Positions 361 through 22,768 of a stretch of DNA of 64,000 bases are shown piece after piece. The stretch comes from Paraescarpia echinospica (Eukaryota > Annelida > Polychaeta > Sabellida > Siboglinidae): contig CM034543.1 in the NCBI GenBank assembly GCA_020002185.1, positions 6,402,656-6,466,655 of the forward strand, written 5' to 3'. The position numbers and the translations under genes are program-made. The notes beneath the pieces were generated by a model. It searched no databases. It had not been told where the DNA came from and saw only the letters and a list, made by a program, of their open reading frames with translations. Numbering within the stretch: the first letter of the stretch is position 1; each line of letters opens with the position of its first letter.

Positions 361-479
361 AACTCACCTGTGGACAGAACTCACCTGTGAACAGAACTCA
401 CCCATTAACAGAACTCACCTGTGAACAGAACTCACCCGTGAACAGAACTCACCCGTGAACAGAACTCACCTGTGAACAG
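361..479 (-). repeat. 17 bp minisatellite made of the TBC1D4 exon 2 donor site
   Basis: Seven tandem 17 bp units lie at 361, 378, 395, 412, 429, 446 and 463. On the minus strand each reads like CTGTTCACAGGTGAGTT. The unit at 463-479 is the true exon border: its CTGTTCACAG half is the last coding sequence of exon 2 and GTGAGT is the intron start. At least four of the seven units keep CAG|GTGAGT; the others carry GGG or a changed exonic half. Reading through the true donor meets a TGA after six codons, and use of the next donor would add 17 nt and shift the frame. Confidence 0.9.
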
Positions 480-1108
480 AACGAGATGTCCTTGAACTTC
501 CGCTGTAGTATGACACTCTTACGATCTGGACTGATCAGACAAAGTTCCGTATCTCCAACCTGGATCAGTCGTATCCGATTCTCCGGATCATACGTTGGCT
601 GTAAATTCTCGCAGCTGTCATTAGACATGACTCCTTGAGACTCGCCATGTCCCGTCATATCCAAACACCCGGAACTGTCCCCCAACCCAGGGGCATCACC
701 CCCTGACCCATCCGTGCCCACCGTGTCGTTACTATCAACACTTCCATTATGCAAACACGTCTTGCAATTCAACAACTCATTCTCGCACACTCCCACGGTC
801 ACCTCAAGGTCAGTCGGGAGGCTGCGCACGCTCGTGCCGCTGACGTTTCTCCTCCGCTCAAACTCTGCTACTTTCTGTCGTTCATGGAATTTGTCAATGA
901 CCTCATCAATGAAGGTGGGCGGGGTTTTCTTGCTGGAGATGAGGACACGCCCGACAAAGAGGACCTCGTACAGGTGTGTCATCATGACCTGCATGCTGAG
1001 GCCAAGTGCATCAAGAGCGCCCCCTGGGGGGACGAGGTCATGCAAACATGGATCATCCCTCGCTGTCTCCTTCGTCGCATCACGGATCACAGCAAACACA
1101 TCATGCAC
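470..1108 (-). CDS. TBC1D4: TBC1D1/TBC1D4-type Rab GTPase-activating protein, coding exon 2
   Basis: This is an internal exon of 639 nt (213 codons), phase 0 at both ends. The acceptor is TTCTTGTGTTCAG|GTGCATGATG at 1109/1108 and the donor CACAG|GTGAGT at 470/469. It continues the first PTB domain (VHDVFAVIRDATKE), then carries a stretch like the start of the second PTB domain (YEVLFVGRVLISSKKTPP, IDEVIDKF). A Ser/Gly/Asp-rich linker follows, and the exon ends with LISPDRKSVILQRKFKDIS, which closely matches the human protein just before its own GIKHVDHFGF segment. The family inactivates Rab GTPases, mainly on vesicles moving glucose transporters in vertebrates. The catalytic TBC domain would be encoded beyond the left edge of the window. 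Both borders of this exon run into arrays of their own splice site. Confidence 0.92.
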
Positions 1109-1327
1109 CTGAACACAAGAATCACGTGAACACATCAACGAGATGAACACATTAAAATTATGCACTTGAAGTTTTGAACACAGCAAACACGTGAACACAT
1201 CAGGTGAACATGTCATGTAGCTGTACATAGCAACCATGTGAACATGTCATGCACCAGAACACATCAACCAAGTGAACACGTCATGTACATGAACACATCA
1301 ACCAAGTGAACACATTATTTAACAAGA
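1109..1327 (-). repeat. Minisatellite made of the TBC1D4 exon 2 acceptor, part 1
   Basis: These are degenerate units of roughly 32-34 bp. On the plus strand they read like CACCTGAACACATCAACCAAGTGAACAC; on the minus strand TTGATGTGTTCAG|GTGCATGATGTG. That matches the real acceptor and the first 14 or so exonic bases of exon 2. The array is cut here by the CR1 LINE at 1328-4284 and resumes on its other side. Confidence 0.8.
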
Positions 1328-4284
1328 GATTTAACAAGATTGCCATCCAGAGAATTAACTCTAGATGGCAGGTGGACAAGGAAGCCCTTTGGCTTATCGA
1401 GAGTCCAACCCTTTTATCTACATATATCCAGCCCTTCTGAGGTATGTGTCGATTTTATTTTTAAACATATTCACACTACTAGCACCCACACAATCATCAG
1501 ATAATCTGTTCCATTCATTCACAGTCCTTTGTGAAAATGAGAACTTTCTCACGTCTAATCTACACTGCTCCTTTACTAATGTAACTTCATGTCCTCTAGT
1601 CTTTCTATCTTTCTTAACTGAAAAAAACATATTTCTATCAATATTTTCATAACCATTCAATATTTTAAACACTTCTATCTGATCTCCTCTCAATCTCCTG
1701 GTCTCTAGTGTTGTTAAACCACATTCTTTTAGGCGTTTTTCATAACTAAGATCCCTCAGTTTTGGTATCATTTTAGTCGCTCTCCTCTGTACTCTTTCTA
1801 GCATATCTATGTCCTTCTTGCAGTATGGCCTCCACGCTTGTATACAATATTCTAAATGAGGCCTAACTATTGTTTTGTACAGCAGTATTATTAGTTCTTT
1901 TTCTTTATATGCTATATTTCGCCTAATCAATCCAAGGATTTGATTTCCCTTTGAAGCTGCAATTCCACACTGCTCTGAAACCTTCATGTCAGCACTAATT
2001 GTCATCCCTAAGTCTTTTTCTTTTACAGTAGTATTTAGTACAGTTCCCCCCATTGTATATTCTATATATTCGTTCCCATGTCCTGTGTGAAGACATTTAC
2101 ATTTCCCAAAATTGAACAACATTTGCCACTTTTCAGACCATTTGATCAACCTGTCAAGATCATCTTGTAAATGCTGTCTATCACCATCACTTTCAATCCT
2201 TCTAAACACTTTTGTATCATCTGCAAATTTCAACACCTTGCTAGCTATATCATCGTCCAAATCGTTTATATATATTAAGAATAATATAGGTCCCAGTACT
2301 GATCCCTGTGGAACCCCACTCAAAACTGATTTCCAGTTTGAAGCCTCCCCATCAACAACTACCCGCTGTCTTCTGTCAATCAGCCATTTTCTATCCAGTT
2401 AATTATACCATTTCCTATGCCATGGGCCTTTAGTTTAAGCAGTAATCTCTGATGTGGCACTTTGTCGAAAGCTTTTTGAAAATCTAAGTAGATGATATCT
2501 ACTGGTGATCCATCATCTACCCACTTAGTGATATCTTCCAAAAACATAACATATTTGTTAAGCATGACCTCGCTTTTAGAAACCCATGTTGAGATGGGTT
2601 TATCAAGTTATGTTTAACAAGAAAACCCACCATGTGATCTTTAATTAGTCTTTCTAATAATTTACAAATCACCGATGTTAAACTAACTGGTCTATAATTA
2701 TTTGACTTGTTTCTCGAACCTTTTTTAAATAACGGTATAATGTTTGCTTCTTTCCATTCTAAAGGAACCACTCCCTCTTCTAATGACAAGTTGAAAACTG
2801 CTGCAAGCGGTATGCTAATTTGTTCTACAATTTCCACTAGTAGTTTGGTTGGAATACCATCCACTCCAGGTGATTTATTTTCCTTCATAGCCCTAATTTT
2901 CTTAGCTACCATTTCTGGGGTTACAATTAACTGTCTTAAATAGTCTGATTCTGCCCCCTTGAACTTAGCCTCTGGTACTGGCAGTGGACTAGTGTCTTCT
3001 CTGGTAAACAATGAACTAAAATACTCATTTAGGTCTTCAGCCATTAAGAATCCTTCTGATATTATATTTCCAGCACTATCTTCTAGAGGACCGACCTTAT
3101 CCTGAACTTTCTGTTTGCTTCGAACATACGCATAAAAACTCTTGCTGTCATGTTTTATATTACAAGCTAATTTATGTTCATAGCTTCTCTTTGAATTTCT
3201 AATTTCAGCTGTAGCTTGGTTTAGTGCTTCTTTATAAATGTTGTAGTCTTCGTCATTGCCAGTACGTCTATATGACTTCCACATCATTTGTTTATACTTA
3301 ATTTTTCTAATGGCTTCTTTCGATAAGTATTTCTTTCTGGTCCGTTTCCCTTGTTTTTTGAAGGAACAAATTTATCTACGATGCACTCTATTTCATTCTT
3401 TAAGATATTCCAGCATTCTGTTGCTGTCTTATTCTTCAGTGTATTATTCCAGTCTATCTTTGCTAAATATTTCCTCATTTCCTTATATCTTCCTTTGTGG
3501 AAATTTCTCCTGAACTGCTTTTTATTATTTCTTTCTGATTTTACTTTGATGGTAAAATGTATCTGGTTGTGATCACTACTTCCCAGAGGCTCACATAATT
3601 TAACATTGTCAACTAATTCATTCTGTGAGGACAAAACTAAGTCTAACACATTCTCTCCCCTGGTTGGTTCTAGCACATGTTGAGAAAGGAAACTATCTTG
3701 TACTAAAACTAAAAACTTGTGGTCCTCACTACCCATACTCTGTAGAGATTTCCATTTTATATGCCCATGGTTAAAATCCCCCATAATAACACAGTCCCGT
3801 TTGCTCACTTCCCTTATAGCGTTTTGTATTTTTTCATTCTCTTCTATGCTTATGTTTGGACTTCGATAAACTAATCCAACCGTTAACGTTGAGTTTCTTG
3901 TAACTATGTTACACCAAACAGCTTCTTCGCAATCTGCTTCTCTGTCTAATTTTATTTCATAAGCCTGGATAGATTCTTTAATATATAAAATAACTCCACC
4001 TCCCCTTCTTCCTGTTCTATCTTTCCTAAACATTACATATCCTGTCAGTCCCAATTCGGCATCTGATATATCGGTGGTTGCCCATGATTCGGTTATACCT
4101 ATTATGTGAGGGTCAATATCTTCTACCATAATGTTTAGTTCATTTCTTTTGTTTACTATACTCCTTGCATTTAAACAAACACATTTATACCCAGCTTCAG
4201 AAGAGTTTTCCAGACTGTTCTTTGCTGAATTATTTTTGCTGCCTTTATCTATGCCTCCAGTTTCAGGCTTCTCTGCTATATTAT
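1328..4284 (-). mobile_element. CR1-type non-LTR retrotransposon (LINE), 5'-truncated ORF2
   Basis: The endonuclease-reverse transcriptase ORF is read on the minus strand in pieces at about 4284-3284, 3287-2517, 2565-2380 and 2323-1418, so at least three frameshifts or gaps break it. The APE endonuclease comes first (LNARSI, ITESW, RRGGGVILYIKE, VIMGDFNH, SSDHNQIHF). The reverse transcriptase follows (SPGVDGIP, NYRPVSLTS, YLDFQKAFDKVPHQRLL, SGVPQGSVLGPILFLIYIND, catalytic FADDT). Last is the typical CR1 C-terminal region (RVQRRATKMIPKLRDLSYE). The 3' end carries short TCTTGTTAAAT repeats. ORF1 is missing. The element sits inside the exon 2 acceptor array, so it landed after the array formed. 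It cannot be autonomous in this state. Confidence 0.93.
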
Positions 4285-4761
4285 ATAGCTGTATACAGCA
4301 ACCAAGTGAACATGTCATGCACCTGAACATATCAACCAAGTAAACCGTTGTACACTTGAACCATCAATCACATGAATACATCATATAGCTGAACACATCA
4401 ACCAAGTGTATGCATTGTGCATTTGAACACATCAACCAAGTGAAAACAGCACACACCTGAACACATCAACCAAGTGAACATGTCATGCATCTGAACATAT
4501 CAACCATGTGAACATCTTGTGCACCTGAACACATCACGAACCTGAATACACCAACCAAGTGAATACCTCATGTACATCCGAACAACCTACTTCAATACTG
4601 TGCACCTGAACACATCAACCAAATGAACACATCAAACAAGTGAATGCATCATGCACCTGAACACACCAATGAAGTGAACACCTCAATCACCTGAACACAT
4701 CAAGCAAGTGAACACCTCATGCCCCTGAACATATCAACCGAATGAATACATTGTACATCTG
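4285..4761 (-). repeat. TBC1D4 exon 2 acceptor minisatellite, part 2
   Basis: This continues the same degenerate unit seen at 1109-1327. It has more than ten copies of the ACCTGAACACATCAACCAAG type, many with TTCAG|GTGCA-like junctions on the minus strand. It ends at the left edge of a 5.1 kb insertion and resumes at 9882. Confidence 0.8.
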
Positions 4762-7700
4762 AGCGGTTCCGCGTTCAGGTAAACCAACCAGTCGTTTTTT
4801 TGAAACTTGTTCAAATTGGACAAGAGAGGTATCATTTGAAAGGTAATATTCCATAGTTTTAGACATCGCATTAATCCTTGTTCAATATATATTATATAGT
4901 CACATATAATGCAACTAATGACGTGTCAATGATAATATTTTATGAAAATTCAACCAAAACATTTATCATTATATCTACTATAAATATAAAAATAGGATTA
5001 TCCATTTTTATATATGGTATAATCCTATACATATAGTTAACTAATTTGTAAACTATAAAAACTGTAACTGTAATTTGAACTGAGTTTTAATTAAAATAGT
5101 AACGGGTATGTACCCACGTATGTCCGACACCAAAAAAGTTACATTTTTTAACCTCTACTGCTATTGGATGGTTGCAAGATTATACAACTGAGATACAATG
5201 TTAATTTTATGTGCTTGAGTAAACAAAATGAAAATGTTGTTTGATTATGTAATCATTAACCAGCAATAGCAGTATCGGACGTACATAAAAACTGTCCGAC
5301 GCCTCCTACGCCCAACACCATATACCATGCTTGATTGGGTCCAATTTTTAAACAGTAGTATACTATTTATGCAATTTCTATGTGATGTTAACACACACTG
5401 TCCTGATGATAACCATTATTAATCCATATAATGGGATTTGCACAACATTATAAACATACAACTAATTACACTGACTTTGCCCACTTTCAACAGGGACACA
5501 ACGAATGAACATTGAACTGAACATTACAAAGCCTAGTACAATCTAGGTAAATTAGTTTAAAGAAGCAAATAATATGTATAGCTTTTTAATATAATTAGCC
5601 TTTTGCCACTGACATAATATCCTGTCATCTGGTGCACAGCGGTCATCTTTGTTTTGTCATATATACAGATTGTCAAATTGTGTTAAAGCCACATTCTATT
5701 CTTTAGTGCCAGAAGTATGCACGGATAAATATCGGAAGCATCGAGAACTATGCCATTGTCTTGGATGAATTACAGGACACCAAGTGTAGCATGTGCATTC
5801 ATGGATATCTGGATATGCTTTTCCAGGATTGGAAGACATATTGTAGATGTGTCAGTAGATCATGAATCAAGATCATCTTGGTAGTCTCAGGTAGGGCTAA
5901 TTTTTGATACAAACCAAGATTCTTATTACCAAACCACCACCCATGGGAAGAAGAGCATAGCATGACATTGGGCAGGTATTTGTTAACAACATGAAATGGC
6001 AAGGGCATTGCAGACAGAATTGGTGAAATGGTCAAGTGAGCAGGCTGACACCATGGTCAAAGTGGAGCATGCCACATACAGTAGCTACATTGGTGGCCTT
6101 GTTGATGTGACTGTATTATGAGAGTATACAGGAATAAGTTATGTCAAATGTTTCCCCAATATACTATCCAAGAGAAAGAATTTTGGAACACACTATGACA
6201 AAGCATTACTGGTAGCCACTACTTGCCAGTTACACTAAATGTTCAGACTAAAATCAAGGGGAACAAGCAACTGACTTAGTTGCCGAAACCTTAGATTCAC
6301 AGTCCTGGGTTAAAGAAAATGTGAATTTGGTTTTTCGTGTGCTACTTCCGCTCGGTACCCCCTCACCCCCAGTGTATATACGATGACGTTGTTACAGAAT
6401 TGTTCATGCAGCCCTTTCTCTGTTTGTATAAAGTTACACCAACTATTGCGTAGGTTGGTAATGGACAATCCAAATGTATTAATTCACAGGGATTGCCACT
6501 GTGCACAGACAATCTATACAGTGTATTTAAATCCTGTGCACAGACAGGCACATCAAGATTACTGATCTATGTACCGCATATGCTATGTACTACAATTTGT
6601 ATATATATATAATAATTTTCCATTCTAGCTAGAGATAGTGACTGAAAAAACCCTTGAATGCTGTAATACACATTTACAGCACACGAACTGTCACAGATTT
6701 ACAAGGAAAATGTGAATTTGGCTTATCTCTTTGGCTACCATTACTTCCAAAATTCAGGACACACTAACAGAAGTGCATCGAGATATCAACGTCAGTGTAG
6801 CTGACTGGGTGGTCTTGAAGTATGGAAGGGCAGATTACTGTGGTGAGGTCTAACATTTTGAAAACACAAGATTTTTGAAAACAAAGTGTTTTGCAGAGGT
6901 TGTGATACTACTAGAAATAGCCTCAGAAGATCACACCTACAACAAGAGTGATGTCATTGAAGATTGATTCACCAACAATTACAGTTAAGTGGAGAGTTTG
7001 TTTTGATACATTTTAAAAGGTCTGCTTGATCTTACACAGTGTCTGGACAGTGAAACATACTTTTTTTGTATTTTGAGTGTCAGAATCCATGTGAATCAAC
7101 AAGCTTAGCTCCAGTAGTGTTTGTTACTGTTACTATCTAACTTAGAAAATATAATGATAACTGTATCTAGATCTAAGTACTTGTTTTGTTGTATTTCACA
7201 TGCATATGTCCGATACCAAAAACAAATGCACGTCCAACAGTTACACCAATTAAATTTGAGGTCCATGTTAATACGTCAAACATCATGCATGTTTTCATTG
7301 TATGACCGGAATACCTACAGGAGGGAACAAAGTCTGTAGGTGTGACAATATTGTCATAGTTGGTTCTTAAATAACATATGACAGAAACAAGTTGTGGCTC
7401 TTTCTATCCCAGGATACAGTGCATGACTAAAGTGTCCGAAATGTAAGTCCGACATCAAGGAACTGCCCTCTGGCAGTGTCTGGACAGTGAAACATCAATG
7501 TTTTGTCTTGTATGTGCCAGAATTTGTGTGAATGAACAAATCTTAGCTCCAAATACTATTTTTGTCATTGTTAGAACCTTATTTGGTAAATACAATTATA
7601 ATTTTATATATTTTGTTATGTTGTATTTTACACACATATATATATACGTCCGACACGAAACATATGGGCATTTCCACGAAAACAGGGAAAAAGGTCTTAA

Positions 7701-9881
7701 AATATTCTTATTGAATTTCCAAAGAATAGTATTTTTTATGGTGGGACATAACTTAAAGTTGTTGGAGAAAAACAATGTTCAATGTTTGCACACTGCATTA
7801 TGTGAAAAAGTACCATTCAAACATTATGTACAGAATTTGCAAAATTCACTCATCCAACACATCAATAATTAGGTGCCCTTTGCAGCCCTATTGTCTAATT
7901 CAATCTGGGTTTGACTAATTTATACTATTTTTCTAGGCCTTAGTCTCAGGCATTTTGAAAATAAAAATTGCAAGTCTATTCTGGGTTTTTTGGGAAAGGC
8001 TTCTAGACATGAGTTGTGAAATTGATGTAACGCGAGTCACAAAATTGGGGATTTTTCATTTTACACAGAAACCCCTGGTAGCTTGAGATTGTCAACTATA
8101 AATCTCTTCTTATAGGATGCAGCTAACTAAATAATATTAACAACATCCATATCTAGTCTACACGGATTATGATATTGGGCACTGAATATGTGTAACGTGA
8201 ATCATGCAAAATTGGGTAGCGTAACGCGAGTCACAAAGCTTTTATGGCAATGATTTGTCATTTCTTTTTTCTATTAAACTTGTGTATAAGTTCGTTGCAA
8301 AGAATTCAAATAGAAACATTATTACCCCCGGGGTAGTTTTATTATATCCCATAACCATTGTTATTTCCTGTTGGTTAATGAAAAAACATGCTCCCTGAAA
8401 AACATTTTTGATCCGACATCATCCATCATCAATTCATGTATATATATATATATACAACCAAACCTCTTGGAAAATAGTACTGTAATACATAACAAGAAAT
8501 TATAGTACCTAACACAACACATATATTCAATAAAACAGAATATTTATTGAAAAAGGATGCAACAGTTATGTATTAATTAATAATAATGTACTTAGTGGAA
8601 TGTCAGGCCGGTGCGTACAGGTTTTTCTTGCTATTCACATAATGTGTTTACATTTAAATAAATTATTTTACAGAATAAAATACTGAATTATACTATAGGT
8701 TGCCAGGTAATAATTACAGGGATAGATTAATGTGATGAACCATATATCTGTACCCAGATATTAATCATCATTACAACGAACATGCTTTAGTGGTGAAAAG
8801 GGGAACTCCTTAAAAAAATTACTGGTACTTTTTGTGTAACAATTAATATGTTATTTTTAAGAATATCAATAGTAAATTGTTAATAAACTGAGTGAAGCCA
8901 CCCATCACTGTAAATTACACTAAGTACTGTTTTTAAATTCTTGTTAATTACACATTTCTTGTTTTAAACCACTATGTTCAAGTTTGCATTACTTTGTATG
9001 GGTAACATGAAAAGGTTAATGTATATTTTAAACTAATATCGTCTCCTTTCTCCATTACATTGTCTTCACAACATAATACAAACAGAAAAATTAATTTCCT
9101 TCAAGCTAAAGTGTGCCTGATCAGTTAATAAATGATAGCTGACTTCACGTAACACGAGTCACGGTAACGCGAGTCACACTGATTATTTAATATTTGTGTG
9201 TTGTTGGTAAAACTTCAATTTACTAATTATGTTTTTTTAAACCCTATTTATTTGTGATTTATTCACAGGTATTCGTTGGTTTCTGTCATTTATACTTTGA
9301 GGAGAAATTTGACATGAACCAAGGTAGGTTTTTGTGTTTTCCTTTTTCCGTAACGCGAGTCATGCTATAATTAGATGCAATTAAAAACATATTATGTAAT
9401 CAAATTATTATTTGCCGATATCATTTAATACACTATGCCAATAGGTTCCTATTCACAGAAGATGGAATTTTGAAATGCATTATTATTGCACATATGCCAA
9501 AATATAGTTTCTAAAATGGGCAAACTTGTAACGCAAGTCACGATGGAAATGACCATATTCTTGTCTATTTTTTTTTTTATATCATGAATACAACATTTTA
9601 TTGGGTTTAGTCAACAGATTAACATCTGCCCCACACATACATTTGAATATAACCTTACGTGGGGTACAAACTTAGGTCCATGTGAATACGTCCGACACCA
9701 TGCATGTTTTACACTGGATGCCCAAAATTACTACAGGAGAGAACAAAGTCTATATATGTGATAATAATGTCATAGTTGGTTCTTACAATATATGACAGTA
9801 AAAAGTTGTGGCTCTTTTTATTCCAAGATGCAATGCATGACTGAAGTGTCCGGAATGTACGTCCGACACCGTGAAACTGCC
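4762..9881. mobile_element. Unclassified 5.1 kb insertion with dispersed short motifs
   Basis: This block interrupts the exon 2 acceptor array. The 6 bp CATCTG flanks it on both sides (4756-4761 and 9882-9887), and joining the flanks restores a normal array unit, so this is probably a transposon insertion with a 6 bp target duplication. The ends show only weak inverted similarity (AGCGGTTCCGCG against GGCAGTTTCACG). Two motifs recur through it: GTCCGACACC or variants (near 5127, 5296, 7208, 7448, 7647, 9690 and 9869) and GTAACGCGAGTCAC or variants (near 8029, 8221, 9150, 9164, 9350 and 9529). A roughly 200 bp direct repeat joins 7275-7478 and 9695-9893. No intact ORF longer than 124 codons is present and I do not recognise the family. 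Confidence 0.6.
6763..6966 (+). pseudogene. Possible decayed coding remnant inside the 5.1 kb element
   Basis: In plus-strand frames broken by stops one can read VADWVVLKYGRADYCGEV followed further on by EDHTYNKSDVIED. This resembles a module seen at the C-terminus of some transposon-encoded proteins, where a DWVLVKY-like strand is followed by GEV. The match is short and based on pattern memory alone, so treat it as a hint that the element once had a gene. Confidence 0.25.
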
Positions 9882-9950
9882 CATCTGGGAACACATCAAC
9901 CAAATTAACGCATCACGTACCTGAACATATCAACCAAGTGAACACATCTG
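9882..9950 (-). repeat. TBC1D4 exon 2 acceptor minisatellite, part 3
   Basis: About two units (GAACACATCAACCAA and ACCTGAACATATCAACCAAG) lie immediately right of the 5.1 kb insertion. They show that the array was continuous before the insertion. The rest of the intron up to exon 1 (9951-11218) holds a palindrome, TA repeats and otherwise nothing I recognise. Confidence 0.75.
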
Positions 9951-10329
9951 GCAAATGTACGATCTAAATAAATACATACGGCTATGAATAACATAACACT
10001 CAGACAACTCATTTTCTAGTCTGGTCCAGATGCAGATATCAATAAAACTCATTACCATAACAAACCTTATTTCAAGTTTGACTTTCCTTCAGTACACCAT
10101 TCTGTTTCTAGTAACTCCAGTTATATCAGGTACATTTTTATAAAATGTTATAATCATCTAGAATTATCAATAATGCAAAGTTAAAGTCAGCATGAGTTGC
10201 AAGCAGGCTTACTGTCTAACGTCTGATGCATCCAGATTGACAGCAGTTACATAAAGGCCTCATCGACATCCACTCATGTTAGCAAACACTCGACTGTGCA
10301 CATCCACCAGGCTTATCGGATAAGTAAAA

Positions 10330-10398
10330 TTGGAGGCACTGGGTGAGGGGGGAAATGGGGATGATATCCCCATTTCCCCCCTCACCCACTGCCTCCAA
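10330..10398. repeat. Near-perfect 33 bp palindrome with 3 bp loop
   Basis: The left arm 10330-10362 and right arm 10366-10398 are reverse complements with a single mismatch, separated by GAT. The arms are G-rich and C-rich respectively (GGGTGAGGGGGGAAATGGGG). It would form a very stable hairpin in single-stranded DNA or RNA. It lies in the first TBC1D4 intron. Confidence 0.95.
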
Positions 10399-10978
10399 AT
10401 TCTGCCAACAAACATCACTACAGACTCCAACAACTCAACTTTCTGAACGACACATGCACAAGCTGCCCACAGGTGATACTTGGAAATATATCTCCTGCAC
10501 AAATGTAATAACTGATGTTTCGATTACCAACTGGTGTCACGTTGAGACCGGCTGACCGAGAGTCAAGTGCCACTCGGTCAACCACAAACACAACACTTGT
10601 GGATTGGTCAAGAACGATGACGTTGTAGCCAGCGTACACCTACTTCATTGTAACATTTGGTTACTGAGACGACACACAATTAGCAGATGATTCAAGTTGG
10701 GTAATTAAAAAAATTAGTAGAGAAAACTTATTGCTCAGAAGGGGAGTTTTCATCTGAGTGGTAATGAAGTCCGTATTTACATCTACTTAATATAAGTGAT
10801 GTAATAAACTACATGTCATGTACCGTCAATATTTAACACACACCCCATATATATATATGTACCAACATGAATATTGCATAGAGCTGGATGCGAAAGAACA
10901 GTGTACTATTAGGCCAAGCACAGCACAGACTACCTGCTGAAAAATTAAGTGTTATAAGCTGGACAGAGTCCAACTGAC

Positions 10979-11218: not shown

Positions 11219-11890
11219 CATGGGTTCGTCAGATGCCTGAAATACGTGACAGGTGTAAACTGACCCAGTGCGAGTTCGGGTCAGATACGCAAAACATTTA
11301 GGGTCTTGGTGGCTTCGGGCGAAACGAGAGAGAGATTGCAGTTTGTGCTCAAACATGAGGCGACTGGAGACAGTCGAGTCACACGTGATTGCTCGGAGAG
11401 TCCGAGACAACACTTGTAAGAGGATCAACTGGGTCTGTTGTCGTCTGCGCACTTCCGCCATCACCCACGGCAACATCTGGTGTGTGTGGCGCTGGTCCAG
11501 CACCAGCTCGCCGAAGTACGTCACAAAGAAGTTGTCGCCCGATTCTAGCACGTTTTGATGGTGGGCACCCCCAACAGCGTCGTCGTCGGCGGGGCAATCG
11601 TCTCGCGCTTCTCCCGACCTAGCCGTAGGAACAGCGTCGACAGTGCTGGGGCGTTCAGCAGAGCCATGGTCTGCCTTGTGTGTACTTTCATTGGTACAAG
11701 TGTAGCTAGCCAAAGTGTCGGGTGTGTCTGTTTGTGTAGGATAAATACAGTCTATGTTCGTTTGGTTCTCAATCCCCGGCTGAGGCAGGTCGCCAGTTTC
11801 GAATACATTATCAATATCATGATTATCAGATTCAATGGCAAATTTGCTATTTTGATTAGGACGCTGGGTGTCACTGCTAGCCGACGTCAT
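11219..11890 (-). CDS. TBC1D4: TBC1D1/TBC1D4-type Rab GTPase-activating protein, first coding exon
   Basis: This exon of 672 nt (224 codons) starts at the ATG at 11890-11888 and ends in a phase 0 donor ATG|GTAAGA at 11219/11218. Residues 1 to about 110 are polar, acidic and low in complexity. From about 112 the first PTB domain begins with NFFVTYFGELVLDQR. It continues with MLPWVMAEVRRR, FEHKLQSLSRFARS, FAYLTRTRTG and CHVFQASDEPM, which align in order with human TBC1D4 (LPWLMAEIRRR, FEHKAQHISRF, FAYLIKA, CHVFRATDPSQ). The domain runs straight on into the exon at 1108 (EPM|VHDV). The protein is cytosolic and membrane-associated in vertebrates. Upstream, UCHL3 starts 445 bp away on the other strand. 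I chose the first ATG of the open frame; an upstream non-coding exon cannot be excluded. Confidence 0.9.
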
Positions 11891-12335
11891 GTTGGAATAA
11901 CACTTTACGCGTGAAGCTTCTAATAAAACCGGATAGCTTACAAGTCATTCAAACGTTCGTTTTAAGCGAATTAATGAAGGCGTTTATATCAACAACGCCC
12001 CTCCCCTTCCTTCCAGCGCCATTTTTTTCGGAAAATATTACGTCACTTCAGTGAGCCTATACGGGCAATGCGAACTGCACATTTCGACTAATGCACACCC
12101 CTTCAGGCTCATCAAAAACATTCAACTTCACACACACCCTGAGGTTTACAAAATCATCAAGATGCAGCTCCATTTGACGCCAAACCGGGAGGTATACCCC
12201 CATACACACTGCAAAATATTTATTTTATATTTAAAAAATTACCACGAAAAACCAGTCACCTCTTATAAGAGCTAATACGGTACCACACCGGAAATGATTT
12301 ATGAAAGTTCATTCCATCCAAACACGACGAACAAC
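11891..12335. promoter_or_regulatory. Putative bidirectional promoter of TBC1D4 and UCHL3
   Basis: These 445 bp separate two divergent start codons, so both 5' untranslated regions and core promoters should lie here. Candidate sites seen by eye are a CRE-like TTACGTCA at 12038-12045, a YY1-like GCCATTTTT near 12018 and an ETS-like ACCGGAAAT at 12287-12295. No clear TATA box at a fixed distance is obvious. These sites are inferred only from matches to consensus. Confidence 0.6.
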
Positions 12336-12377
12336 ATGGCTGGACTGAGATGGTTGCCGCTCGAATCGAACCCCGAA
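12336..12377 (+). CDS. UCHL3: UCHL3-type ubiquitin C-terminal hydrolase, coding exon 1
   Basis: This is the first of nine coding exons (12336-12377, 12492-12503, 14093-14221, 17271-17406, 19696-19778, 24168-24215, 31094-31169, 40130-40188, 45169-45252) that together give 222 codons; the human protein has 230. It encodes MAGLRWLPLESNPE, matching the human start MEGQRWLPLEANPE, and ends in a phase 0 donor GAA|GTAAGT. The enzyme is a small cytosolic cysteine protease of family C12 that removes short adducts from the C-terminus of ubiquitin and NEDD8. Across the exons the four active-site residues are kept: Gln in FIKQ, Cys in NACGT, His in DLHF and Asp in EMDGR. The gene diverges from TBC1D4 across a 445 bp spacer. 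Confidence 0.95.
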
Positions 12378-12491: not shown

Positions 12492-12503
12492 GTGATGAAC
12501 AAG
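12492..12503 (+). CDS. UCHL3: UCHL3 coding exon 2, a 12 nt microexon
   Basis: TTATGTTGTAG|GTGATGAACAAG|GTGAGTTAG encodes only VMNK, phase 0 on both sides. It is needed for length: human reads PEVTNQFLKQLG and this gene reads PE + VMNK + YVHTLG with no gap. I found it by hand from splice signals and homology, so transcript support would be useful. Confidence 0.85.
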
Positions 12504-13052: not shown

Positions 13053-13297
13053 GTTTGTGCTTTTACTTTGTGTTTGTTAGGCATATTTGTATGTAGTTGT
13101 TGAACATTCTAGTTCTACAATCTTAAATAATGCTTATTATTATGGCATCTGTTATTTGTACTGAATATTATCAATCAATAATCAACATTTCTCGACTTTG
13201 GTGATTTAGGGAAAAGTTCTCTACATCACAATTTAATAATTCAGATGGATTAAATGAAGATGCTATTCTTGTATACAAATTAATATTGATATTAATA

Positions 13298-13973: not shown

Positions 13974-14092
13974 TAGAAATATGCCTAATAAAAATGCTAT
14001 TTTAATGAAGCCCTACATATCCATATTTATTCAACTACATCCAAATGCAATATGTAGCCTTCATCTTGAACGTATTGTTATTTCTTTCCCAG

Positions 14093-14221
14093 TATGTTCA
14101 CACTTTGGGCGTTCCTAGCAACTTCCAGTTTGTTGACGTTTGGGGTCTCGACCCTGAGCTACTCGTGATGGTGCCAAAGCCAGTCCTGGCAGTGCTGCTT
14201 CTCTACCCCATTACCCCGCAG
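14093..14221 (+). CDS. UCHL3: UCHL3 coding exon 3
   Basis: This exon has 129 nt, 43 codons, phase 0 at both ends, with acceptor TTTCTTTCCCAG|TATG and donor CCCCGCAG|GTAAGA. It encodes [14 protein letters not shown] and [12 protein letters not shown], matching human WQFVDVYGMDPELL and PVCAVLLLFPIT, the first strands and helix of the UCH fold. Its last 18 bases plus the donor are the founding unit of the 37 bp array that follows. Confidence 0.95.
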
Positions 14222-14390
14222 GTAAGACACCCTACCTGTCTACCCCATTACCCTGCAGGTAAGACATTCTACTTATCTATCCCATTACCCCGCAGGTAAG
14301 ACACCCTACCTGTGTACCCCATTACCCTGCAGGTAAGACATTCTACTTATCTACCCCATTACAACACAGGTAGGATACCTTACTTGTCCC
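14204..14390 (+). repeat. 37 bp minisatellite made of the UCHL3 exon 3 donor, part 1
   Basis: Units start at 14204, 14241, 14278, 14315 and 14352, each of the form TACCCCATTACCCCGCAG|GTAAGACACCC. The first unit is the genuine exon end and donor. Each later unit keeps CAG|GTAAGA or CAG|GTAGGA. The array is then interrupted by a CR1 LINE and continues at 16395. Confidence 0.95.
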
Positions 14391-16394
14391 ATTGAAAAAA
14401 CAAGGGAAACGGTCCAGAAAGAAACACTTATCGAAAGAAGCCATTAGAAAAATTAAGTACAAACAAATAATGTGGAAGTCATATAGACGTACTGGAAATG
14501 ATGAAGACTACAACGTTTATAAAGAAGCACTTAACCAAGATACAATTGAAATTAGAAATTCAAAGAGAAGCTATGAAAAAAAATTAGCTTGTAATATAAA
14601 ACATGACAACAAGAGTTTTTATGCATATGTTCGGAGCAAGCAGAAAGTTCAAGATAAGGTCAGTCCTCTGGAAGATAGTGCTGGAAATATAATATCGGAG
14701 GGATTGTTAATGGCAGAAGACCTGAATGAGTACTTCAGTTCGGTGTTTACCACAGAAAATGTTAGTTCACTGTCAGTACCAGAGGCTAAGTTCAAGGGGG
14801 CGGAATCAGACTATTTAGGACAGTTAATTGCAACCCCGGAAATAAAATAAAAAATAAGGACAATGAAGGTTAATAAATTCCACCCAAACTACTATTGGAA
14901 ATTGTAGAACAAATCAGCATACCGCATGCAACAGTTTTCAACTTGTCATTAAAACGAGGGAGTGGTTCCTTTAGAATGGAAAGAAGCAAACATTATACCG
15001 ATATTTAAAAAGAGTTCGAGAAACAAGTAAGAGAACTACAGATATCGGTGATTTACAAATTATTAGAAAGACTAATTAAAGATCACATGGTGGATTTTCT
15101 TGTTAAACATAACTTGATAACCCATCTCAACATGGGTTTCTAAAAGCGAGGTCATGCTTAACAAATATGTTATGTTTTTTGGAAGACATCACTAAGTAGA
15201 TAGACGAGGGATCACCAGTAAATATCATCTTCTTAGATTTTCAGAAAGCTTTCGACCAAGTGCCACATCAAAGATTACTGCCTAAACTAAAGGCTCATGG
15301 CATAGGAAATTGTATAATTAACTGGATAGAAACATGGCTGATTGACAGAAGACAACGGGCAGTAGTTGATGAGGAGGCTTCAATTTGGAAATCGGTTTTG
15401 AGTGGGGTACCACAGGGATCAGTCCTGGGACCTATATTATTCTTCATAATTATATATATAAACGATTTGGATGATGATAACAAGCAAGGTGTTGAAATTT
15501 ACGGATGGTACAAAAGTGCTTAGAAGGATTAAACGTGATGGAGATAGACGCATTTACAAGATGATCTTGACAGGTTGATCAAATGGTCTGAAAAATGGCA
15601 GATGTTCAATTTTGGGAAATGTAAATGCCTCCACACAGGACATGGGAACGAAGATGTAGAATATACAATGTGGGTTATTGTACTAAATACTACTAAAAGA
15701 AAAAGACTTAGGGTTAACAATTAGTGCTGGTATGATGGTTTCAGAGCAGTGCGGACTTGCAGCTTCAAAGGGAAATCAAATCCTTGGATTAATTAGGTGA
15801 AATATAGTGTGTAAGGAAAAAGAACTAATAATACCGCTGTACAAAACAATAGTTGGGCCTCATTTAGAATATTGTATACAAGTGTGGAGGCCATACCGCA
15901 AGAAGGACAGATATGCTAGAAAGAGTACAGAGGAGAGCGACTAAAATGATACCAAAACTGAGAGACATTAGTTACAAAATACGCCTAAGAGAATGTGGTT
16001 TAACAACACTAGAGACCAGGAGATTGAGAGGAGATCAGATAGAAGTGTTTAAAATATTGAATGGTTATGAAAATATTGATAGGAATATTTTGTTCTCAGT
16101 TAAGAAAGATAGAAGGACTAGAGGACATGAAGTTACATTAGCAAAGGAGCAGTGTAGATTAGATATAAGAAAGTTATCATTTTCAAAAGGACAGTAAATG
16201 ATTGGAACAGATTATCTTCTGATTGTGAGGGTGCTAGTACTAGTAGTGTGAATATGTTTAAAAATAAAATTGACACATCTCAGAAGGGTGGGATACACGC
16301 AGATAAAAAGGGTTGGACTCTCGATAAGCCAAAAGGCTTCCTTGTCCACCTGCCATCTAGAGTTAATTCTCTGAGTGGCCATGTTATTAAATCT
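14391..16394 (+). mobile_element. CR1-type LINE, 5'-truncated and inactive
   Basis: This belongs to the same family as the copy at 1328-4284. It starts in the linker after the endonuclease (KHLSKEAIRKIKYKQ) and runs through the reverse transcriptase to the 3' end. Open pieces lie at 14392-14850, 15260-15523 and 15913-16197. The catalytic FADD motif is altered (it reads FTDG around 15498) and several frameshifts are visible, so it is dead. It landed inside the exon 3 donor array, which must be older. Confidence 0.92.
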
Positions 16395-16457
16395 TGTCTA
16401 CCCCATTACACCACAGGTAGGACACCCTACTTATCTACCCCACTACCTTACAGGTAA
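16395..16457 (+). repeat. UCHL3 exon 3 donor minisatellite, part 2
   Basis: Two more 37 bp-type units (CTACCCCATTACACCACAG|GTAGGA and CTACCCCACTACCTTACAG|GTAATA) follow directly after the LINE. Both still carry a CAG|GT junction. From 16458 to 17270 the intron is AT-rich with nothing else I recognise. Confidence 0.9.
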
Positions 16458-17270
16458 TACCAGGGACATGACAAGTTTCCTAGCTTAACAGCCGTAACAG
16501 GACACAATTCAACAGTTCACAGGTCCTGCCGATTTTTTACAAAACCTTAATTTCTCTCAACGTATTAAATGTAATTTCATCGAAATACCTTCATGTTGTA
16601 TTGCTTTATCCTACCTACATGCACTTCAGTCCACTGTATTCACAAGTCACAACTACTCTCTATTTTCCAATGTCTTAAGACAGTATTTTCAAAGGCAGTG
16701 ACCAAAAAGGAACATTGTAATGTAACTTGTCTATAATAATAATAGGAAACAGAATAATTAATTCTGCTACCTCAAATTTATTTATAAATTTATTCATTGT
16801 CCAAACGTTGATAAGCTCGTCATTGAAAATATGTTGTATGGTTCAGTGTTGGCATCTCGTGTAATAATCGGTGGCGTCTCACCGCTGAACCTGGACATTA
16901 ATCCAGAAAAATGTTTTGTATTTTGCTTGCATTATTTCTCGTGAATATTTCAGAATAATGCCTTTGTGGGTTTTTGCTAAATATTAGGCAAACTATCAGC
17001 TTGCATAACATAAAATTGGCATCTGTTATCAGCTCCACTGCCAGTCCAAGATAGTTACTGCACCGAACAAACATGTCTTGCAAATATGTCACACATTCAT
17101 GATTTATGGCTAAAATAAATGCAATAGAGCCACAAGGTAACTTTCTGTTCGTTAACCATCACCTTAACTGTAGCTTCTCAATTTTTGTACGAAACATACA
17201 TGTAAAAGGAAATGTGCAATTTGATGTCTTGATAAATAGCTTGATGACGACATGTTTGTGGTTTATACAG

Positions 17271-17406
17271 TCAGAGAAGGAGATCTTTGGTGAGGAGGAG
17301 AACAGAGGAGACATGTACTTCATTAAACAGACCATCGGCAATGCGTGCGGCACAATGGGACTCATTCATGCCATCCTCAGCAACTCAGACAGGATCAAAC
17401 TTGACG
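17271..17406 (+). CDS. UCHL3: UCHL3 coding exon 4 with catalytic cysteine
   Basis: This exon has 136 nt, beginning in phase 0 after GTTTATACAG and ending in phase 1 at GACG|GTGAGA. It encodes YFIKQTIGNACGTMGLIHAI, which carries the oxyanion-hole Gln (KQ) and the nucleophile Cys (NACGT). The segment before it, SEKEIFGEEENRGDM, is eight residues shorter than the human equivalent and accounts for the whole length difference. A missed microexon in intron 3 is the alternative, but I saw none. The following intron up to 18121 shows no other feature. Confidence 0.95.
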
Positions 17407-18121
17407 GTGAGAGTCGGTCTGATGGCAGTGCTCCCTGCGTGAGTTTAGTGGAGTCATGCAACGGTAATCAACCTAGCGTATGTATATATATATGTCTGTG
17501 GAAATGTTAACATTTCCTTCTAGGCGGTTTGCATTTCGGGCACATTGGCCTGTGGGTGCCACACTTTTAGGGATTAATTTATGACATGAGGGAAGTAATC
17601 TCTGTAAAGGGTTTGTAAAGGTTTTAGGGTTCACACTGGATGTTAGTTGGATGTAAATGTATTGTAAATGACCTTACGCATGGTTCTGAGTCATTCCATT
17701 GGTATGCTGATCAGTTGAGCATCAGAGCATGTTACACATGTTATACATAACTTGCATCTCAAATTACGTCATAACATGTATCATTTATTAATACTCTGGG
17801 AAACCATCTCCTGTCTGTTAACGTAACACCATCCTGATGGTGGGCTTTTTTCTGATTAGTGCAAACATGGAAGTTTTCACCAGCGTTTTTTTTATTATAT
17901 TGTACAAGAGTACGGTAACAATCTTGTTCATTTTGTAGTTAGTATGTTAGACATGTCCCAGAGATGTCGGTCATCACAAATTATGCAGGAAGCGCCCGCT
18001 GTCATTATGGTGTCTTGGTTTTCGTACAAGATGTTCACACTTTTCAAGTTTATTCTACATTGTCAACAATGACAATATTATATAGCCTGTTCACTGTGTA
18101 CTTTATTTGATGCCACTTATA

Positions 18122-19717
18122 TTAGTTTATTGCCTAACATTGTTACAGCATCAAAACACCTCAGTGTATTGGTTTATTGCCTAACATTGTTACAGCATCA
18201 AAACACTTCAGTCTATTGGTTTATTGCCTAAATTGTTACAGCATCAAAACACCTCAGTGTATTGGTTTATTGCCTAACATTGTTACAGCATCAAAACACT
18301 TCAGTCTATTGGTTTATTGCCTAACATTGTTACAGCATCAAAACACCTCAGTGTATTGGTTTATTGCCTAACATTGTTACAGCATCAAAACACCTCAGTG
18401 CATTGGTTTATTGCCTAACATTGTTACAGCATCAAAACACCTCAGTGCATTGGTTTATTGCCTAACATTGTTACAGCATCAAAACACCTCAGTGCATTGG
18501 TTTATTGCCTAACATTGTTACAGCATCAAAACACCTCAGTGTATTGGTTTATTGCCTAAATTGTTACAGCATCAAAACACCTCAGTGTATTGGTTTATTG
18601 CCTAACATTGTTACAGCATTAAAACACCTCAGTGCATTGGTTTATTGCCTAACATTGTTACAGCATCAAAACACCTCAGTGTATTGGTTTATTGCCTAAC
18701 ATTGTTACAGCATCAAAACACCTCAGTGTATTGGTTTATTGCCTAACATTGTTACAGCATCAAAACACCTCAGCGTATTGGTTTATTGCCTAACATTGTT
18801 ACAGCATCAAAACACCTCAGTGTATTGGTTTATTGCCTAACATTGTTACAGCATCAAAACACCTCAGTGTATTGGTTTATTGCCTAACATTGTTACAGCA
18901 TCAAAACACCTCAGTGTATTGGTTTATTGCCTAACATTGTTACAGCATCAAAACACTTCAGTGTATTGGTTTATTGCCTAACATTGTTACAGCATCAAAA
19001 CACCTCAGTGCATTGGTTTATTGCCTAACATTGTTACAGCATCAAAACACCTCAGTGCATTGGTTTATTGCCTAACATTGTTACAGCATCAAAACACCTC
19101 AGTGCATTGGTTTATTGCCTAACGTTGTTACAGCATCAAAACACCTCAGTGCATTGGTTTATTGCCTAACGTTGTTACAGCATCAAAACACCTCAGTGTA
19201 TTGGTTTATTGCCTAACGTTGTTACAGCATCAAAACACCAGTGTATTGGTTTATTGCCTAACATTGTTACAGCATCAAAACACCTCAGTGCATTGGTTTA
19301 TTGCCTAACATTGTTACAGCATCAAAACACCTCAGTGTATTGGTTTATTGCCTAACATTGTTACAGCATCAAAACACCTCAGTGTATTGGTTTATTGCCT
19401 AACATTGTTACAGCATTAAAACACCTCAGTGTATTGGTTTATTGCCTAACGTTGTTACAGCATCAAAACACCTCAGTGTATTGGTTTATTGCCTAACGTT
19501 GTTACAGCATCAAAACACCTCAGTGTATTGGTTTATTACCTAACATTGTTACAGCATCAAAACACCTCAGTGTATTGGTTTATTGCCTAACATTGTTACA
19601 GCATCAAAACACCTCAGTGTATTGGTTTATTGCCTAACATTGTTACAGCATCAAAACACTTCAGTGCATTAGTTTATTGCCTAACATTGTTACAGCATCA
19701 AAACACCTCAGTGCATT
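18122..19717 (+). repeat. 47 bp minisatellite made of the UCHL3 exon 5 acceptor, about 34 copies
   Basis: Each unit is TTGGTTTATTGCCTAACATT then GTTACAG|CATCAAAAC then ACCTCAGTGYA. It includes a branch-point-like CCTAAC, the 3' splice site TTACAG and about 20 bases of exon. The last unit is the true junction of exon 5 (19695/19696). Copies are almost identical, with variants such as CATTG/CGTTG, CTTCAG/CCTCAG and a few short deletions, which suggests recent or homogenised expansion. Because 47 is not a multiple of 3, an upstream acceptor changes the frame; I find early stops when any of them is used. Confidence 0.97.
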
Positions 19718-19778
19718 CCTTGCAAAGACAAAGAGCATGACACCAGAAGAACGTGGGAAGTATCTGGAGACTGACACG
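19696..19778 (+). CDS. UCHL3: UCHL3 coding exon 5, flanked on both sides by copies of its own splice sites
   Basis: This exon has 83 nt, phase 1 in and phase 0 out. With the G from exon 4 it reads ASKHLSAFLAKTKSMTPEER, then GKYLETDT, matching the human segment that ends KKFLEESVSMSPEERARYLE. The acceptor TTGTTACAG|CATCAAAAC is the last unit of the 47 bp array and the donor GACACG|GTAAGT is the first unit of the 39 bp array. Only this pair of sites keeps the protein in frame with exons 4 and 6. Confidence 0.93.
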
Positions 19779-22768
19779 GTAAGTCTCCTATTATCTACAG
19801 ACTAGCACGGTATGTCTCTTTATTCTTTTGTTATCTAGAGATTGACCCGGTATGTCTCTCATCCTTGTGTTATCTAGAGACTGGCACGGTATGTCTCTCA
19901 TCCTTGTGTTATCTAGAGACTGACACGGTATGTCTCTCATACGTGTATTATCTAGAGACTGACTCGGTATGTCTCTCATACTTGTATTATCTAGAGACTG
20001 ACGCGGTATGTCTCTCATCCTTGTGTTATCTAGAGACTGACACGGTGTATCTCTCAAACTTGTATTATCTAGAGACTGACATGGTACGTCTCTCAAACTT
20101 GTATTATCTAGAGACTGACACGGTATGTCTCTCATCCTTGTGTTATCTAGAGACTGGTACGGTATGTCTCTCATCCTTGTATTATCTAGAGACTGACACG
20201 GTATGTCTCTCATACGTGTATTATCTAGAGACTGACTCGGTATGTCTCTCATACTTGTATTATCTAGAGACTGACACGGTATGTCTCTCATCCTTGTGTT
20301 ATCTAGAGACTGGTACGGTATGTCTCTCATCCTTGTGTTATCTAGAGACTGACACGGTATGTCTCTCATACGTGTATTATCTAGAGACTGACTCGGTATG
20401 TCTCTCATCCTTGTGTTATCTAGAGACTGACGCGGTATGTCTCTCATACTTGTTTTATCTAGAGACTGACGCGGTATGTCTCTCATCCTTGTGTTATCTA
20501 GAGACTGGTACGGTACGTCGCTCATCCTTGTGTTATCTAGAGACTGACATGGTACTTCTCTCAAACTTGTATTATCTAGAGACTGACACGGTATGTCTCT
20601 CATACGTGTATTATCTAGAGACTGACACGGTATGTCTCTCATACTTGTGTTATCTAGAGACTGACACGGTACGTCGCTCATCCTTGTGTTATCTAGAGAC
20701 TGACATGGTACTTCTCTCAAACTTGTATTATCTAGAGACTGACTCGGTATGTCTCTCATCCTTGTGTTATCTAGAGACTGATGCGGTATGTCTCTCATAC
20801 TTGTGTTATCTAGAGACTGACATGGTACTTCTCTCAAACTTGTATTATCTAGAGACTGACTCGGTATGTCTCTCATACTTGTGTTATCTAGAGACTGACA
20901 CGGTATGTCTCTCATCCTTGTGTTATCTAGAGACTGACATGGTACTTCTCTCAAACTTGTATTATCTAGAGACTGACTCGGTATGTCTCTCATCTTTGTG
21001 TTATCTAGAGACTGACGCGGCACGTCTCTCATTCTTGTATTATCTAAAGACTGACACGGTACGTCTCTCATACTTGTGTTATCTAGAGACTGACACGGTA
21101 TGTCTCTCATACTTGTATTATCTAAAGACTGACATGGTACGTCGCTCATCCTTGTGTTATCTAGAGACTGACACAGTACGTCTCTCATACTTGTATTATC
21201 TAAAGACTGACACGGTATGTCTCTCATACTTGTATTATCTAAAGACTGACACGGTATGTCTCTCATACTTGTGTTATCTAGAGACTGACACAGCATGTCT
21301 CTCATCCTTGTGTTATCTAGAGACTGACACAGTATGTCTCTCATCCTTATGTTAGCTAGAGACTGACACAGCATGTCTCTCATCCTTGTGTTATCTAGAG
21401 ACTGACACGGTACGTCTCTCATCCTTGTGTTATCTAGATACTGACACGGTATGTCTCTCATCCTTGTGTTATCTAGAGACTGACACGGTATGTCTCTCAT
21501 ACGTGTATTATCTAGAGACTGACTCGGTATGTCTCTCATACTTGTATTTTCTAGAGACTGACGCGGTATGTCTCATCCTTGTGTTATCTAGAGACTGACA
21601 CAGTATGTCTCTCATCCTTATGTTAGCTAGAGACTGACACAGCATGTCTCATTCTTGTGTTATCTCGAGACTGACACGGTATATCTCTCATCCTTGTGTT
21701 ATCTAGAGACTGACACAGTATGTCTCTCATCCTTATGTTAGCTAGAGACTGACACGGTATGTCTCTCATCCTTGTGTTATCTAGAGACTGACACAGTATG
21801 TCTCTCATCCTTATGTTAGCTAGAGACTGACACAGCATGTCTCTCATCCTTGTGTTATCTAGAGACTGACACGGTATATCTCTCATCCTTGTGTTATCTA
21901 GAGACTTACACGGTATGTCTCTCATCCTTATGTTAGCTAGAGACTGACACAGTATGTCTCTCATCCTTGTGTTATCTAGAGACTGACACAGTATATCTCT
22001 CATCCTTGTGTTATCTAGAGACTGACACAGTATATCTCTCATCCTTTTGTTATCTAGAGACTGACACAGTGTCTCTCATACTTGTATTATCTAGAGACTG
22101 ACACAGCATGTCTCTCATCCTTGTGTTATCTAGAGACTGACACAGTATGTCTCTCATCCTTATGTTAGCTAGAGACTGACACAGCATGTCTCTCATTCTT
22201 GTGTTATCTCGAGACTGACACAGTATATCTCTCATCCTTGTGTTATCTAGAGACTGACACGGTACATCTCTCATCCTTGTGTTATCTAGAGACTGACACG
22301 GTATGTCTCTCATCCTTGTGTTATCTAGAGACTGACACAGTATGTCTCTCATCCTTATGTTAGCTAGAGACTGTCACAGCATGTCTCTCATCCTTGTGTT
22401 ATCTAGAGACTGACACGGTATGTCTCTCATTCTTGTGTTATCTAGAGACTGACACAGTATATCTCTCATCCTTGTGTTATCTAGAGACTGACACAGTATG
22501 TCTCTCATCCTTATGTTAGCTAGAGACTGACACGGTATGTCTCTCATCCTTGTGTTATCTAGAGACTGACACAGTATGTCTCTCATCCTTATGTTAGCTA
22601 GAGACTGTCACAGCATGTCTCTCATCCTTGTGTTATCTAGAGACTGACTCGGTATGTCTCTCATCCTTGTGTTATCTAGAGACTGACATGGTATGTCTCT
22701 CATCCTTGTGTTATCTAAAGACTGACATGGTATGTCTCTCATCCTTATGTTAACTAGAGACTGCCATG
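19761..22768 (+). repeat. 39 bp minisatellite made of the UCHL3 exon 5 donor, about 76 copies
   Basis: The consensus is TTATCTAGAGACTGACACG|GTATGTCTCTCATCCTTGTG. The founding unit is the exon end TATCTGGAGACTGACACG with donor GTAAGTCTC. Nearly every copy keeps ACACGGTATGT or a close variant, so dozens of potential 5' splice sites follow the real one. Since 39 is a multiple of 3, both strands stay open for hundreds of codons (for example 19865-21355 plus and 21539-19791 minus). The plus-strand phase even re-encodes the exon residues YLETDT in each unit. Those ORFs are repeat by-products, not genes. The first downstream units are irregular (31 and 40 bp), and read-through from the exon hits TAG within nine codons. 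Confidence 0.97.

Follow-up and report, generated by a model that had tools for sequence, protein, structure and literature searches.

Tandem arrays start at splice junctions more often than expected in four genes of the tubeworm Paraescarpia echinospica

In a 64,000-nucleotide stretch of the genome of the siboglinid tubeworm Paraescarpia echinospica (the window hereafter; contig CM034543.1, C13:6402656-6466655 of an assembly of 1,083,790,144 bases in 3111 contigs), five of the 19 visible splice junctions, three donors and two acceptors, lie in the terminal copy of a tandem array with a repeat unit that spans the splice site. The window holds the gene UCHL3 and the first two exons of a TBC1D4-like gene, and arrays of the same kind are found in the rest of TBC1D4 and in two further genes, CLTC and VCP. 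These data support the conclusion that tandem arrays start at junctions disproportionately often. Our current hypothesis, which we regard as likely, is that the arrays are minisatellites of the 'mirage' type, that is, junction-straddling duplications that are enlarged into the intron and tolerated since the outermost copy is still spliced. We lean slightly toward a broader proposal, namely that splice junctions throughout the genome of this tubeworm lineage are hotspots of minisatellite birth, with exon ends duplicated several-fold above the intron interior and a large share of the intronic tandem repeat consisting of copies of the neighbouring junction.

Results

Junction arrays inside the window

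The five arrays are given below, followed by the two long interspersed nuclear elements (LINEs) that split two of them. A slash marks the exon-intron boundary.

360..482, minus strand: TBC1D4-like exon 2 donor array, 17-bp unit TGTTCACAG/GTGAGTTC, 7.2 copies, real junction at the exon edge (exon end 470)
1095..1315, minus strand: TBC1D4-like exon 2 acceptor array, degenerate 17/34-bp units with TGTGTTCAG/GTGCATGA
4295..4762, minus strand: TBC1D4-like exon 2 acceptor array, part beyond the LINE
14198..14388, resuming at ~16394-16455, plus strand: UCHL3 exon 3 donor array, 37-bp unit (74-bp dimer) of 24 exonic nt (LLYPITPQ) plus GTAAGACACCCTA
18120..19717, plus strand: UCHL3 exon 5 acceptor array, 47-bp unit ...TTGTTACAG/CATCAAAACACCTCAGTG, 34 copies
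19762..22772, plus strand: UCHL3 exon 5 donor array, 39-bp unit TTATCTAGAGACTGACACG/GTATGTCTCTCATCCTTGTG, ~77 copies
1320..4262 (ends approximate), minus strand: LINE within the TBC1D4-like exon 2 acceptor array, pieces of which match reverse transcriptase and endonuclease families
14391..16394, plus strand: LINE copy within the UCHL3 exon 3 donor array, similar in sequence to the LINE at 1320-4262

The same 19 junctions and the same five arrays had been singled out in an earlier, sequence-only reading of the window. Its unit sizes of 17, 37 and 39 bp for the donors and 47 bp for one acceptor are confirmed, while the second acceptor, given there as about 33 bp, has 17/34-bp units. Two genes are affected, as it stated, but they are neighbours rather than unrelated. 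Its observation that the real junction is always the terminal copy holds at all five arrays. The arrangement needs no separate explanation, as a duplication across a junction that does not alter the protein must have its copies on the intron side. The remaining 14 junctions of the window have no adjacent copy, with local scores of 12-18 versus 31-60 for the five.

The weakest of the five cases is the TBC1D4-like exon 2 acceptor array, which is degenerate and split by a LINE. A clear dimer is present only in the UCHL3 exon 3 donor array, where autocorrelation is 0.897 at two units versus 0.799 at one; in the two large arrays of the window autocorrelation is blurred by small indels. The two LINEs are 89% identical to each other over 2052 columns, and their presence inside two junction arrays indicates that the arrays are aged features of the genome. 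The LINE at 1320-4262 carries a short ATTTAACAAG-type tandem at its 3' end.

Long arrays are error-prone in assemblies, and an assembly artefact would be the most trivial explanation for such structures. However, the copies differ among themselves, LINEs lie within two of the arrays and the pattern recurs on three contigs, so that we give this explanation next to no weight.

Minisatellites might also be so common that some of them adjoin exons by chance. Tandem arrays do occupy 23.5% of the window, and among 600 random window points 23% score at least 38 and 26% at least 31; mere position in repeated sequence is therefore unremarkable. Being the terminal copy of an array that runs into the intron is another matter. 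In a circular-shift test run at three Tandem Repeats Finder thresholds with a tolerance of 25 nt, the five terminal-copy junctions compare with null means of 0.41-0.54 (P = 1e-4 to 2e-4), in agreement with the earlier argument that chance adjacency is insufficient. At a tolerance of 2 nt, four such junctions are found versus 0.21-0.26 expected, a count equalled in 0 of 20000 shifts.

Junctions sampled in four genes

As one striking window might be the most extreme of thousands, the sample was extended to the rest of TBC1D4, which was retrieved regardless of repeat content, and to CLTC (contig C9, 27 matches) and VCP (C2, 16 matches), for which each exon match at the gene was taken with ~450 bp of flank. 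Most junctions of CLTC and VCP were placed by a script that made spliced alignments with the human proteins, and all seven hits in these genes come from this script. Five CLTC pairs that it had mis-called, the final CLTC donor and the two VCP pairs around exon L035 were set manually, and no hit is among them. In TBC1D4 the positions of all 23 junctions were set manually, in eight cases with a shift of one base, and the exon at 90906 contributes its donor only. For CLTC the count runs from residue 171 to the exon that ends near 1610, and for VCP it leaves out both ends of the gene. The total is 122 junctions (CLTC 53, VCP 30, TBC1D4 23, UCHL3 16).

With a hit threshold of 28, the junction's own segment is repeated on the intron side at 16 of the 122 junctions, and on the exon side at none (0/122 in the four genes). 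Acceptors (11/60) and donors (5/62) do not differ significantly (P = 0.11). Just below the threshold are TBC1D4 donor -576 (score 26) and TBC1D4 acceptor -27138 (27, beside a 24-copy array). The CLTC L042 acceptor was also left uncounted; its array shares an exonic stretch and stops 23 nt short. Control points drawn from the same introns, the far ends of junction arrays included, lie in terminal copies at 48/3000 positions in CLTC and VCP flanks and 62/3000 in UCHL3 and TBC1D4 introns (110/6000 together). The excess at junctions is significant for all 122 (Fisher P = 2.6e-9) and for the 11/103 outside the window (P = 5e-6). The idea of the sequence-only reading that junctions act as seeds of tandem duplication is supported, as regards the excess of array starts there, elsewhere as well as in the window; VCP and CLTC alone give 7/83 junctions versus 48/3000 intronic points (Fisher P = 5.7e-4). 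The junction-array excess holds in all four sampled genes, beyond the window.

The rest of TBC1D4 contains more junction arrays. Array acceptors with 40- and 36-bp units are present, along with one acceptor beside a 58-bp array of ~24 copies and a donor array of 28 copies of a 33-bp unit, in the translation of which the exonic end QHAILIDLG is repeated. A 37-bp array at L012:8642-9865 (window -31358 to -30135) matches TBC1D4 acceptor -31715 from ~360 nt away and has the appearance of a displaced junction array; counts of adjacent arrays may therefore underestimate the phenomenon.

Array ends and intron content

The positions of the arrays relative to exons show the same bias. In a zone that runs from 60 nt within the exon to 400 nt out in the flank, 42 exon-proximal array ends were located. 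Of these, 14 fall within the exon at 8-29 nt from its border and 7 within 30 nt of it on the intron side, which leaves 21 for the remaining 43.7 kb of flank. More than 30 nt from a junction, the density of array ends is 0.48 per kb.

The content of the intronic arrays was compared with the junctions in UCHL3 and TBC1D4. Among the 25 large array groups in these introns, twelve match one of the junctions at the ends of their own intron (scores 27-60); they represent 10 independent arrays once pieces split by insertions or distance are joined. The scores of the other 13 groups, compared with the full set of 39 junctions in both genes, are 14-21. Null scores from 54 arrays go up to 28, with a median of 16, and 11 of the 12 groups are above them; the cut of 26 was chosen after the scores were known, and the group at 27 is not above the highest null value. 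Junction copies account for 9857 of the 19926 array bases in the introns of the two genes.

Chance overlap was rejected on the circular shifts, the counts at junctions versus intronic points and the pile-up of array ends at -29 to +30 around junctions. Together with the matches of array groups to junctions of their own intron, these results make chance a very improbable source of the pattern.

Exon end first or repeat first

All five window units include coding sequence in their exonic part, which is conserved at four junctions and in part at the remaining one. For UCHL3, the exonic residues of the units, YLETDT among them, recur in P0001 or P0021 and occupy ungapped positions in the alignment with the human protein. 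At the TBC1D4-like exon 2 donor, KDISFCSQ recurs in P0121-P0124, and at the acceptor of the same exon VHDVF is only partly shared (VQQLF in P0123/P0124). As the exonic part is old coding sequence at four of the five junctions, most of the window arrays were seeded by the exon end.

The converse would be that exon ends were captured from pre-existing repeats, the splice site having moved into the array. Capture fits arrays without a conserved exonic part, such as that at TBC1D4 acceptor -13062, whose exon start lies outside the human match, and possibly the TBC1D4-like exon 2 acceptor, with its partial conservation. It is at odds with the conserved, position-matched residues at the other four window junctions, for which it was rejected, and with relatives that have the same exon end as the TBC1D4-like exon 2 donor without the array. 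As a general explanation we consider capture improbable.

These relatives, P0121 and P0122 (85-86% protein identity), provide good evidence that the 17-bp array at the TBC1D4-like exon 2 donor is absent in relatives. Both read straight from the exon end into the intron (CSQ/VSSRRT and CSQ/VSSSRT), and the window has VSSQRT only beyond the last 17-bp copy. The first three intron-side residues would be common to any donor copy, so the alignment is modest evidence for the exact point of insertion. Comparison with relatives, which the sequence-only reading had put forward as a way to date the expansions, was thus informative for this one array; the UCHL3 exon 3 array has no counterpart in P0137 and P0138, relatives too distant to date it. 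The 17-bp unit of this array has a GTTC direct repeat at its borders. Slippage or short-homology repair would be expected to leave such a trace, which is seen in this one case.

Splice signals in the extra copies

Splice-site copies could be kept by selection as decoys, back-ups or splicing enhancers, a possibility also raised in the sequence-only reading. The over-representation of junctions among array starts would fit. The signal itself was compared in 11 arrays, with the UCHL3 exon 5 donor array handled separately and CLTC L048 left outside. GT/AG is kept in all extra copies of seven arrays, including 33/33 at the UCHL3 exon 5 acceptor, and an eighth varies less at the signal than elsewhere. 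Across the 11 arrays, however, mean variation at GT/AG is 0.091 versus 0.095 elsewhere in the unit (Wilcoxon P = 0.46), and in the pooled counts 34/268 signal bases versus 286/2948 others differ from consensus, so that the signal is if anything the more changeable part (P = 0.13). Once CLTC L051 is excluded, the register of which is uncertain owing to a short sub-period, the counts are 14/232 versus 177/2552 (P = 0.69).

Further results run counter to selection. In the UCHL3 exon 5 donor array (78 units), variation is 0.064 at the signal and 0.077 elsewhere, so the signal is not special, and 13% of units carry a base other than T in the GT. Many copies lack the signal in three arrays, where it is intact in 21/27 (TBC1D4 -18655), 7/11 (TBC1D4 -13062) and 7/18 (CLTC L051) extra copies. 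Only one of the five window periods is divisible by 3, and with the other four inner sites would shift the frame. Taken together, the data give no overall support for selection on the splice signals of the extra copies, although 8 of the 11 arrays lean that way, and we consider such selection unlikely to be the main cause.

Gene models and other features of the window

UCHL3 lies on the plus strand and consists of nine exons (12336-45252) that join into an open 222-amino-acid coding sequence, with GT..AG at all 16 borders. The product matches Pfam Peptidase_C12 (E 9.4e-69), its alignment with human UCHL3 spans residues 1-219, and the best named protein match is from Lamellibrachia satsuma (87% over 79% of the query). 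In spite of the extra splice sites, it agrees at the protein level with P0001 and P0021. The TBC1D4-like gene, on the minus strand, has exons 1 (11890-11219) and 2 (1108-470) in the window and continues leftward past it with further exons. Its three visible junctions, which with the 16 of UCHL3 make up the 19, are backed by the reading frames of relatives (P0121-P0127). Exon 1 has a PTB/PID match and exon 2 no Pfam match. The two genes are head to head, their start codons ~450 bp apart (11890-12336), and are presumably also adjacent on human chromosome 13.

470..1108, minus strand: TBC1D4-like exon 2, from relatives' reading frames
11219..11890, minus strand: TBC1D4-like exon 1, coding part, from PTB/PID match and reading frames; donor without array
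12336..12377, plus strand: UCHL3 exon 1 (this and the following exons from the joined coding sequence)
12492..12503, plus strand: UCHL3 exon 2 (12 nt)
14093..14221, plus strand: UCHL3 exon 3
17271..17406, plus strand: UCHL3 exon 4
19696..19778, plus strand: UCHL3 exon 5, arrays at both ends; DASKHLS and YLETDT also in P0001/P0021
24168..24215, plus strand: UCHL3 exon 6
31094..31169, plus strand: UCHL3 exon 7
40130..40188, plus strand: UCHL3 exon 8
45169..45252, plus strand: UCHL3 exon 9, including the stop codon

Several other sequence features were noted. A palindrome-rich element with repeated AAAACGGTTTAGTTAAAACG-like motifs, seen by eye, occupies 30040-30710 and splits a 16-bp array that is not junction-derived (29594-30037 and 30711-30887), as insertion of a miniature inverted-repeat transposable element would. 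A 2.1-kb degenerate array at 57687-59829 is strongly C-rich, with a GC skew of -0.78 for 58001-60000. By eye, the same segment (CACGGTTTCAAGCTATGTTATATTTAAATAATCGTG...) occurs twice ~9 kb apart, at 53920-54240 and 63080-63360, the second flanked by LINE-like sequence, and an inverted repeat (TGGAGGCACTGGGTGAGGGGGGAAATGGGGAT...ATCCCCATTTCCCCCCTCACCCACTGCCTCCA) is found at 10320-10400.

Discussion

The pathway that we propose would begin with a short tandem duplication (periods here are 11-85 bp) that straddles an exon-intron junction and may arise by slippage or short-homology repair; the sequence-only reading had put forward replication slippage and R-loop or nick-associated repair as possible mechanisms. 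Later rounds of unequal exchange or slippage would extend the array into the intron. Duplications entirely within the exon would alter the protein and be lost, and those that straddle the junction would be tolerated, with an unchanged mRNA, because the spliceosome can keep using the outermost, exon-side copy. The exonic copy would keep its sequence under protein-coding selection; the extra copies would drift, most likely neutrally, and their splice sites would presumably stay unused. Junctions or exon ends may in addition have a raised duplication rate. An exon-biased duplication process, visible only at exon edges as selection removes the purely exonic events, would fit the seeding bias.

Several observations weigh against this explanation. 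At 0.48 array ends per kb, ~1.8 would be expected in the 30 nt inside the 122 exon borders, and 14 were found. Neutral tolerance alone predicts the smaller number, and an extra seeding bias must therefore be assumed. Two of the 16 hits are doubtful, as the array matching TBC1D4 acceptor -31715 begins ~360 nt from the exon, and acceptor -13062 was set manually at the edge of the array, where the exon start is not conserved; with both removed, the excess is 14/120 overall (P = 1.0e-7) and 9/101 outside the window (P = 1.4e-4). The sample consists of four genes at three loci, two of the genes being neighbours. Eight of the 11 arrays vary less at GT/AG, seven of them not at all, mostly arrays with few copies, which leaves room for constraint. 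In four arrays, a number of extra donors equal or exceed the real one in their match to U1 (CLTC L044 5/6, UCHL3 exon 3 3/4, TBC1D4-like exon 2 3/6, TBC1D4 -18655 8/27), so that position rather than strength probably decides donor choice. Lastly, we infer the use of the outermost copy from the proteins of relatives only.

The sequence-only reading knew of no described system of this kind. One is on record: in amphioxus, minisatellites at exon/intron boundaries, termed 'mirages', are described for the Adh, globin, TnC and PGBD5 genes (PMC3087553, PMC3902484), the second report adding PGBD5 and citing troponin C (PMC3902484). In these reports, the unit is 10-160 bp and splicing is reportedly undisturbed; as in the tubeworm, it straddles the boundary, both 5' and 3' boundaries are affected and many extra copies keep AG/GT (PMC3087553, PMC3902484). 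The tubeworm units likewise span the exon-intron boundary at 5' and 3' ends, and the real junction is at the array edge with the exon intact (no exon-side copies at 122 junctions, and an open UCHL3 coding sequence). The differences are that the present host is an annelid, that about one tenth of the sampled junctions are involved, that UCHL3 exon 5 is enlarged at both ends (34 and ~77 copies) and that LINEs have invaded arrays; the tubeworm arrays are known from genome sequence alone.

Other boundary repeats are less similar. Human segmental duplications contain ~30 bp minisatellites at exon-intron boundaries of recent paralogues, for which novel introns and alternative splicing are reported (PMC2812944), whereas the genes studied here are widely conserved and their reading frames intact. 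Earthworm metallothionein loci also have minisatellites in annelid introns, in this case the first, with monomers of mostly ~180 bp, and fourth-exon duplications missing from the transcript; unlike the arrays reported here, these minisatellites are not described as spanning splice sites in the accessible part of that account (PMC12783039). No report of splice-site-spanning arrays in annelids was found in the open-licence PubMed Central literature. This is a known kind of array in another phylum, and what is new, as far as the literature was searched, is the taxon, the frequency and a measurable seeding bias.

Two older lines of work are also related. Turri et al. in 1995 reportedly found that a minisatellite in human 6-16/IFI6 gives multiple splice donor sites. 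There, too, a minisatellite supplies splice donors, at one donor region of one gene, in contrast to the donors and acceptors at many junctions found here. Rogers in 1989 and Venkatesh in 1999 are cited in PMC3087553 for intron gain through tandem duplication of AG/GT proto-splice sites. That model shares with our arrays a tandem duplication across AG/GT as raw material for introns; in the tubeworm an existing junction has been enlarged, and no new intron is shown.

Mirages at about one tenth of the sampled junctions of an annelid make the origin of such arrays testable and datable between tubeworm genera. Seeding rates can be compared among donors, acceptors and interior points, and splicing fidelity can be studied where ~77 similar donors follow the real one. 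If the pattern is true of the genome generally, exon borders would be a main engine of intron growth in this lineage, and AG/GT duplications would be naturally available for the gain of introns in a protostome. The arrays would then offer living material for the old idea that introns are created by AG/GT tandem duplication.

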